64,000 bases of DNA, taken from Actinobacteria bacterium HGW-Actinobacteria-1 (GTDB lineage: Bacteria > Actinomycetota > Coriobacteriia > Anaerosomatales > Anaerosomataceae). A program made the position numbers and the translations under genes. The stretch spans positions 1-64,000 of the forward strand of contig PHFB01000011.1 of the NCBI GenBank assembly GCA_002841355.1, read 5' to 3'. The notes below the pieces were generated by a model. It worked only from the letters and a program-made list of their open reading frames with translations. It did not search any database and was not told the DNA's origin. Positions 1,125-3,164 of this stretch are shown in pieces. How positions within the stretch are numbered: position 1 is the first letter of the stretch; the number at the start of each line of letters is the position of its first letter.

Positions 1125-3164
1125 TCAGAGCTTCTCGATACCTTCGATGATCTTCATGAGCAGGTCACGGTCCACCAGCTGGTCCCTATGCAGCACCATG
1201 CTGTCATCGGAATCAGGAATCTTGCCGACCGTCGTGACAGGGCGGGACCGTGCGGCGCCGCCGCCACCCGTCAGGGCGGTGATCTCATCTCCAAGCCCAT
1301 AGTTCAGCGTCGTGTCGCCCTCGAACTCGGCAAGGTACGCATCTGTGGAGATGACCCCCGTCGTCGGCTCAGCAGGCTCCAGTGGTTCATCTCCGGTCGA
1401 TAGTGATCGGAGCAAGTCATCCAGGTCGCTCGTGGTTGACGATATCCGAGTGGGCTCCGGCTCGAATTCTGGTTCTGGCTCCGGCTCGAATTCTGGTTCT
1501 GGTTCTGGTTCTGGTTCTGGTTCTGGTTCTGGTTCGGGCTCGGGTTCGGGCTCGGGCTCGGGCTCGGGTTCGGGCTCGGGCTCGGGTTCGGGCTCGGGTT
1601 CCACTTCCGGCTCTACTTCCGGAAGCATCTCCGATTCCGACTCAGCCGTCGGCGCAGCCGGGATGTCGAAGTACATGGACTCCACGACGTCCTCTTCGAC
1701 ACTCTGATCGGATGCGAGCTCGACGGGCACCTCGCCCAACCCGAGTGCACGGAGGTCCGTCTCAAGGTCGCCGGTCATGGTGACCGGTGGTATGTCGCTT
1801 GTCTCGGCGCCTGACTCGATCACGCCTTCCGCGATAGGTGGAGCAGGAATCTCGCTCGTCTCCGCCGCATTCAGCGCTCCGAAAAGTGCCTCGGCGTCGA
1901 ATGTCGACTCCGGTTCCGGTTCCGGTTCCGGTTCCGGTTCCGGTTCCGGTTCCGGCTCGGGCTCGGGCTCCGGTTCCGGCTCGGGCTCCGGCTCCGGCTC
2001 CGGCTCCGGCTCGGGCTCGGGCTCCGGCGCGGGCTCGGGCTCCGGCGCGGGCGCCGTCTCGACTGGATGTTCGAGCACGGCCTCCATCATCTCGGCAAAG
2101 ACAGCCATGTCCTCAGCCGAGGCACGCGTCTTACTCACGGAAAGGAACTCGGGCTCCTCGTGAGGCTCCTCTGCAGCTCGCGCGGCCTGAGCAGCCTCGT
2201 CGGCCGCAGCGGCCTCGGCGACTGCGCTGGCCTGTGCTTCGTCGACTCGGGCCTTCTCGGCCTGCTCGGCCTGCTCCGCGGCCTGCTGCTCCGCTGCCTG
2301 GCGAGCAGCTGCCGCTGCGGCGATCTCCGACTCGAGATTGATCGCCTCAAGTGCGGCTGCCTCGTCGCGCGCCCGGCGCTCCGCCTCAAGATTCGCACGC
2401 TTGTCTTCTCGCCCGGAACGTTCCGCGCGAAGGCGTTCTACCTCTTCGTCTGTGGGTACCTCAAGCAGTCCTGCCGAGAACAGGCCATAGATCACGCGGG
2501 CCACTTCGAAGTCTGTCTTGTTCATCGCGGTGGCGAGATCGGAGATGTTCCTCGTGCCGTCGACGAGCAAGAGAAGCGCCCACTCGCTCGGCTTGAGTGA
2601 GATCTCGAACGTGCCCTCACCGGGAGCGGTGGCCATCTTGAAGACCATCTCGACGGATGGAACCTTCTTCTTGATCCGGTTCCACTCCTCGAGGCGACGG
2701 CTGCCCTCCATCACGATGTTCTCTATCGACACCGAAAGACCGATGTCCTCGTCGGCGACTTCCGGCAGCACCTCGAAATCGAAATCGCCCTCGTCCCAGC
2801 GCATGAGATCGAAGATGGTGTCCTGGATCTGCTCCTGCACGAACGTCTCGAGCACCTTATCGGTGAGGTAGCCCTCGTCGACAAGAATCTGCCCCAGGCG
2901 ACGGCCGTTGGCGGGCTCCAGGCGTTGTATCTCAAGCGCCTTCACAAGGGCGCTCGGCGTGATTCGGCCGGTCGTCACCAGGCGCTGGCCGAGAGGATCG
3001 CGATGCCAGTTGGACTGCGCGAAGAAGACATCGCCGTCGCGGAACCAGATACTTCCGTCAGCGTCCGTGCTTGTTATGCGCAAAACCCCCGTCTTCTTGC
3101 TCAGTTGTACGAGCTGGAAGACATCGGGTAGCGAGAAGTCCCTGAGATTGCCGCGAAGTGCCAT
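1125..3164 (-). CDS. DUF4388 (PATAN) protein with two long Glu-Pro repeat tracts
   Basis: 679 residues. The N-terminal 250 are a typical DUF4388/PATAN module (start [20 protein letters not shown]). Residues 57-80 and 89-112 each fit an LG..LV..G..(T)....L......Q pattern. A charged Ala/Glu-rich, coiled-coil-like segment follows at about 250-330, then two EP-repeat tracts separated by an acidic segment. The C-terminus is conserved-looking (ends in [15 protein letters not shown]). No membrane segment is visible. PATAN proteins are usually signalling adaptors in gliding or pilus systems (family knowledge). It sits between the roadblock and GTPase genes, so it probably bridges them to a partner. 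Start chosen for the conserved N-terminus. Confidence 0.85.
1459..1600. repeat. Glu-Pro coding hexamer array, second tract
   Basis: An in-frame array of GGNTCN hexamers in the DUF4388 gene, read as Glu-Pro on the minus strand. It contains a homogenised block of six GGTTCT units (1495-1530), followed by mixed GGCTCG/GGTTCG units. Two GGCTCGAATTCT interruptions encode Glu-Phe. Confidence 0.9.
1912..2060. repeat. Glu-Pro coding hexamer array, third tract
   Basis: A second array in the DUF4388 gene. It opens with seven perfect GGTTCC units (1912-1953) and then mixes GGCTCG, GGCTCC and GGTTCC, ending in Ala-Pro/Glu-Pro units. The synonymous spelling differs from the other two arrays, pointing to independent local expansion. 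Confidence 0.9.
2829..2996 (-). other. Tandem MshEN-like motif inside the DUF4388 protein
   Basis: Residues 57-80 begin [13 protein letters not shown] and end ALEIQ. Residues 89-112 begin [13 protein letters not shown] and end VQEQ. Both are 24 residues long and follow the published c-di-GMP-binding MshEN pattern RLGxx[LVI][LVI]xxG[LVI][LVI]xxxxLxxxLxxQ with one or two deviations each. The spacer is 8 residues instead of the usual 5. Function is inferred from motif only. Confidence 0.5.

Follow-up and report, generated by a model that had tools for sequence, protein, structure and literature searches.

Introduction

In MshE of Vibrio cholerae, each MshEN motif touches c-di-GMP through L2, G3, L17, L21 and Q24 and stacks its Arg1 on guanine; changes of G3 abolish binding, and the MshEN_C subdomain is dispensable for it. 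Position 1 of the consensus has been extended to R/K/L. Among the GSPII domains of Thermus thermophilus PilF, GSPII-C binds c-di-GMP with a KD of about 324 nM while carrying P at motif II position 1; since it has three motifs, more than one pair may do the binding there. Gln-to-Glu mutants of GSPII-B have, according to the titles of their PDB entries, been crystallised with c-di-GMP. GSPII-A does not bind even with the consensus residues restored, so that sequence alone does not decide ligand binding. According to the 2016 MshEN paper, the domain also accompanies uncharacterised domains and is found in FrgA and in Bd2402, a response regulator.

PATAN proteins act as controllers of pilus motors, and some of them are encoded close to GTPases of the MglA/MglB type. 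Its insertion was reportedly named "alpha-clip" by its describers and predicted to be a four-helix bundle. That PATAN can carry a helical insertion has been on record since 2006 (Makarova et al.). In Synechocystis, the PATAN regulator PixE binds PilB1 and reverses movement (Jakob et al., as related by a paper citing it), and PATAN genes have been found near MglA-type GTPases (PMC4316618). Here we analysed a PATAN protein of Actinobacteria bacterium HGW-Actinobacteria-1 whose insertion carries a tandem MshEN-like motif; homology, predicted fold, conservation and operon structure were established by computation.

Results

Domain organisation of the adaptor and its neighbours

The window, the whole 64,000-nucleotide stretch that was analysed, carries the adaptor gene and its neighbours on the minus strand:

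581..1108 (-): small Ras-like GTPase, MglA-like (TIGR00231, 45.6 bits vs cut-off 42.5; syntenic)
1125..3164 (-): PATAN/DUF4388 adaptor gene, 679 aa (PF14332 at residues 4-162, E 1.5e-34)
1128..1232 (-): conserved C-terminal tail of the adaptor, retained among relatives whose C-termini are complete, although their linkers vary
1443..2057 (-): two Glu-Pro repeat linkers, about residues 370-421 and 502-574 (sequence; low-complexity HMM matches)
2433..2612 (-): winged-helix/MarR-like domain, about residues 185-244 (weak MarR/HTH structure profile matches)
2679..2801 (-): second half of the PATAN core after the insertion, about residues 122-162 (PF14332 extent; model strand 127-132)
2802..2996 (-): four-helix insertion, a predicted MshEN_N-like bundle within the PATAN fold (AlphaFold2 and Foldseek)
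2829..2900 (-): MshEN-type motif II, residues 89-112 (9/11 consensus positions; R1, L2, G3, L17 and Q24 present)
2925..2996 (-): MshEN-type motif I, residues 57-80 (9/11 consensus positions; P for R at position 1)
3192..3803 (-): Roadblock/LC7 protein, MglB-like (PF03259, E 1.8e-17; syntenic)
3944..5617 (-): PilB-type extension ATPase with degenerate MshEN motifs (PF00437, E 6.4e-137; PF05157, E 8.6e-25)

The preliminary description had called it a DUF4388 protein, DUF4388 being the PATAN domain of Pfam/InterPro, and this was confirmed, PF14332 scoring 119.1 bits against a gathering score of 25. Both PF14332 and NF053729 were matched by all 83 members of our PATAN alignment, and HTH_27 by 3 of the 83; helices were predicted at residues 192-230 of the adaptor. 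The C-terminal tail is a probable docking peptide, as judged from its conservation. The Roadblock and Ras-like GTPase genes together form an MglA/MglB-type module, recognised here from profile matches and synteny.

Opposite the Glu-Pro repeats (window 1-580 and 1443-2057), the other strand shows long Gly-Ser or Arg-Ala ORFs that are spurious, and the contig end apparently lies near such a repeat. Elsewhere in the window we observed a 1779-aa S8 subtilase that combines Big_5 with three cell-wall-binding CWB2 stretches (42432-47768, minus strand) and a 6S RNA match barely above its gathering score (18312-18489, minus strand; 46.9 vs 46.4).

A tandem MshEN-type motif lies in the PATAN insertion

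Residues 57-112 of the adaptor, encoded by exactly window positions 2829-2996, were scored against the published MshEN motif RLGxx[LVI][LVI]xxG[LVI][LVI]xxxxLxxxLxxQ (11 defined positions). Motifs I and II each fit at 9/11 positions, with deviations at P57 and R67 in motif I and at Y99 and V109 in motif II, and are separated by the 8-residue spacer RLEPANGR. They were the two top scorers among the 127,858 six-frame 24-mers of the window, and their tandem score of 18 compares with a best of 15 when residues 1-245 were shuffled 20,000 times. NCBIfam NF053729 ("c-di-GMP_motif, MshE-related") matched exactly residues 57-112 with 45.2 bits (cut-off 38, E 5.9e-12). The tandem MshEN-like motif with an 8-residue spacer that had been noticed earlier was thus borne out, together with the pattern RLG...LV..G.L....L......Q read in motif II, where R, L, G, L and Q are all present (9/11), and with a weaker version in the adjacent PilB, which reaches 8/11 and 5/11, its spacer being 3 residues long.

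The spacer of 8 residues compares with 5 in MshEN and ranges from about 5 to 10 across PATAN relatives. Its length was not used as an excluding feature, since c-di-GMP-binding PilF GSPII-C has 7; in the PDB alignment, the GSPII-C chain shows this spacer of 7 residues and has K at position 11. PF05157, which models the full MshEN domain including the MshEN_C subdomain after the bundle, found no match in the adaptor protein.

The insertion is homologous to MshEN and is predicted to adopt its fold

The best PDB match of the single adaptor sequence was 5HTL (MshE with c-di-GMP, E 6.7e-5), and a PDB search with the profile of 83 PATAN domains returned Thermus PilF (2.2e-15) and 5HTL (1.3e-9). Profile alignment against MshEN, proposed in the preliminary description as a check, supported homology when the PATAN profile was compared by hhalign with the MshEN of PilB proteins from the same order (98.9%, E 1.6e-17). 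AlphaFold2 modelled the whole domain with a pLDDT of 87.4, placing helices at 58-64, 70-82, 90-96 and 102-121, between PATAN strands 45-51 and 127-132; the insertion alone reached a pLDDT of 89.9. In whole-domain Foldseek searches the top ranks were mostly long alignments of low TM, the useful match being only 5HTL (probability 1.00, 1.7 Å), and the insertion was therefore run alone.

Its first 13 PDB hits were all MshEN-type domains, with E-values that are weak (best 0.014), as expected of a short helical domain. On top ranked the c-di-GMP-bound 5HTL and GSPII-B structures (8pdk, 8pfa, 9glg, 9gl5) at 1.5-2.0 Å, followed at lower ranks by the non-binder GSPII-A (9g1w), the X. citri PilB N-domain and the non-binder XpsE. 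The suggested comparison with MshEN-c-di-GMP complexes likewise came out in favour of the proposal, the predicted bundle superposing on 5HTL at 1.5-1.6 Å over 60 columns, and a helix break ahead of L58 in the model corresponds to the break that alpha1 shows in ligand-bound MshEN. To judge from this superposition on ligand-bound MshEN, the motif residues of the model are not buried away from the pocket, an arrangement that would have spoken against a sensor. The HMM match, the PDB sequence search, the comparison of profiles and the predicted fold point the same way, and the resemblance to MshEN is one of real homology and not of look-alikes. The insertion of the adaptor is best read, on the same data, as the known alpha-helical insertion of PATAN, here predicted to be an MshEN_N bundle.

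Ligand positions are unevenly conserved between the two motifs

When the ligand residues (R/K/L)1, L2, G3, L17, L21 and Q24 were considered, 10/12 were present in the adaptor, the deviants being P57 and V109: motif I has L, G, L, L and Q, with P in place of R, and in motif II R, L, G, L and Q remain, with V in place of L. Among 43 orthologues, motif II was nearly invariant, with R1, G3, L17 and Q24 in 43/43 and V at position 21 in 43/43, and with a mean entropy of 0.03 bits at ligand positions vs 0.92 at the consensus x positions; the adjacent PilB has an entropy of 1.08 at its own motif II ligand positions. In motif I of the same orthologues, L2 (97%), G3 (100%), L17 (97%) and L21 (90%) were maintained, position 1 was mostly P or L, and Gln24 was kept in 34%, with R, H, S or K in 28/43 (R in 23/43). 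Another 26 PATAN domains from Actinomycetota had G3 in 100% for both motifs and Q24 in 76% (motif I) and 100% (motif II).

To look for PATAN in other phyla, plasmids were searched; this returned Thermomicrobium and Streptomyces only, and the Streptomyces plasmid PATAN protein showed no tandem motif. The Thermomicrobium roseum plasmid NC_011961.1 carries two PATAN proteins about 8 kb apart (L158:1501-2193 and L156:5950-7092); P0007 has a near-perfect tandem motif, and P0005 has a degenerate insertion with no LG in either motif. P0005 suggests, from its sequence, that the helical fold can persist without ligand residues.

The adjacent PilB, but not every PilB of the genome, has lost ligand positions

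The preliminary description had proposed that the adaptor and not the motor would be the nucleotide sensor. For the adjacent PilB this stood: in all 33 comparable loci its motif II had lost Gly3 and its motif I had lost Gln24, though motif I retained core positions 6 and 10, and this PilB has likely ceased to bind c-di-GMP, to judge by these residues. Genome-wide the proposal went too far, and the idea that no motor of the genome is able to bind was rejected, as two other PilB-type ATPases, which retain more ligand positions than the neighbour, outscore the adaptor on the c-di-GMP motif model (60.1 and 59.7 bits vs 50.3). One of these two, the PilB preceding PilT, has H for motif I Gln24 and I and M for the motif II Leu pair.

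Operon and genome context

In Anaerosomatales loci we found the gene order PilB-Roadblock-PATAN-GTPase-PilB-PilT, with a 289-aa protein between GTPase and PilB in locus L045, and Roadblock-PATAN-GTPase-PilB-PilT-PilC recurs in other Actinomycetota loci. In the source genome the downstream PilB-PilT-PilC lies on another contig (L013), because the window starts at a contig end; its contiguity with the window is proposed from synteny.

A second PATAN, shorter but bearing the same motif, belongs to a chemosensory cluster in 19/20 second-PATAN loci examined, the exception (L093) being an orthologue-type locus. The cluster comprises CheR, CheY, a PilB-like protein, two CheW, MCP and, in loci that extend far enough, CheA, and the order PATAN2-CheR(TPR)-CheY-pseudo-PilB-CheW-CheW-MCP-CheA-CheB (L012:7403-17827) was observed order-wide as far as loci reach. 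The PilB-like protein beside the second PATAN (L012:10156-12054, contig C10 of the source genome) has a degenerate Walker A and has lost the Walker B Glu. Both changes occur in 20/20 Anaerosomatales loci (source and 19 related), Walker A being altered from GPTGSGKST to APVAAGAST or APVAGGRST. The protein still matches T2SSE and MshEN, as a conserved pseudo-motor.

The genome has 11 GGDEF matches, 2 EAL matches and 2 c-di-GMP-I riboswitches; c-di-GMP is evidently made in the source organism, judging from this gene content. PilZ was not detected in the genome and was above cut-off in 1/40 related genomes. Co-occurrence with GGDEF (40/40) was discarded as support for binding, the phylum baseline already being 268/296. 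One riboswitch (C25:50340-50431) lies ahead of a 193-aa, probably secreted protein, and the other (C1:244045-244137) ahead of a probable surface protein with parallel-beta-type repeats.

Discussion

Sequence and model together make it fairly probable that the protein is a c-di-GMP-responsive PATAN adaptor with a putative binding site in its insertion. For ligand binding, partner and direction of effect, we infer the following. The insertion would most likely bind one c-di-GMP, one guanine per motif. Two leucine clusters (L73/L77/L90 and L58/L105/V109) would hold the ligand together with the backbone amides of G59 and G91, and Q80 and Q112 would contact its ribose and phosphate. Binding would alter the PATAN surface and thereby its docking on the PilB motor and/or the Roadblock-GTPase pair, which would couple the c-di-GMP level to pilus extension, and the Glu-Pro linkers and conserved C-terminal tail might tether a partner.

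The MshEN_N fold could also have been kept without its ligand, as a module that docks on other proteins (PilB, Roadblock or GTPase), the conserved residues then serving interface or packing. The degeneracy of motif I positions 1 and 24 in most orthologues and the retention of the fold without binding in XpsE and GSPII-A fit such a module. The same holds for the Thermomicrobium PATAN that retains the helical region without LG in either motif, although this protein also suggests that the fold needs no LG. We nevertheless regard a docking module as rather unlikely: Gly3, the position of backbone-amide binding, is kept in both motifs of 43/43 orthologues and in 26/26 other Actinomycetota domains, the adjacent PilB lost one Gly3 in 33/33 loci, and the predicted fold ranks nearest to ligand-bound binders.

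A different nucleotide such as cGAMP, which MshEN binds weakly, or a half-site per protein with the complete site formed across a dimer, would agree with the far better conservation of motif II than of motif I. Either is improbable, given that both motifs contain the guanine-reading LG and hydrophobic pair and that both halves superpose jointly on one MshEN_N bundle. Chance resemblance or a generic helical repeat, conceivable for a short-helical, Leu-rich motif, was refuted by the ranking of the 24-mers (top two of 127,858), a score that shuffles did not reach, the HMM match (E 5.9e-12) and the homology to 5HTL and PilB MshEN, and has next to no probability.

If the insertion binds c-di-GMP, then the c-di-GMP, PATAN-PilB and Roadblock-GTPase pathways would meet in one small protein, and bacteria that make c-di-GMP with no detectable PilZ proteins would have a receptor for it. 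More tentatively, we consider it possible that the helical insertion of PATAN is a c-di-GMP receptor in general, and that in PilZ-less Actinomycetota the sensor moved from motor to adaptor, where it might gate the Roadblock-GTPase polarity module and, through the second PATAN paralogue of the Che cluster, a chemosensory pathway.

The motif, the PATAN insertion and PATAN-GTPase neighbourhoods are already known, and NCBIfam annotates the motif. Among the papers searched, none names PATAN insertions as receptors of c-di-GMP, though earlier recognition is possible.

Among described systems, the insertion resembles MshEN_N and GSPII (V. cholerae MshE, 5HTL; Thermus PilF GSPII-B and GSPII-C) in its tandem 24-residue motif, its predicted four-helix bundle, most ligand positions and a predicted superposition at 1.5-2.0 Å. 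Contrary to these, the bundle is inserted in PATAN instead of lying N-terminally on an ATPase, and it comes without MshEN_C; it also differs from MshEN_N in its spacer (8 vs 5), P for R in motif I and V for L in motif II. With PATAN proteins bearing an alpha-helical insertion (PF14332; cyanobacterial PixE, PixG and LsiR), the adaptor shares the domain at residues 4-162 and the association with type IV pili. It differs from PixE, PixG and LsiR in that no receiver domain was found; in its place are a domain of winged-helix type, the Glu-Pro linkers and the conserved C-terminal tail, and its gene sits with Roadblock and GTPase genes. In the latter respect it resembles the MglA/MglB modules with PATAN neighbours (Wuichet and Sogaard-Andersen 2014, PMC4316618), where Roadblock and small GTPase genes stand beside PATAN; unlike in those modules, the pair lies here within a pilB-pilT-pilC operon that recurs across Actinomycetota loci.
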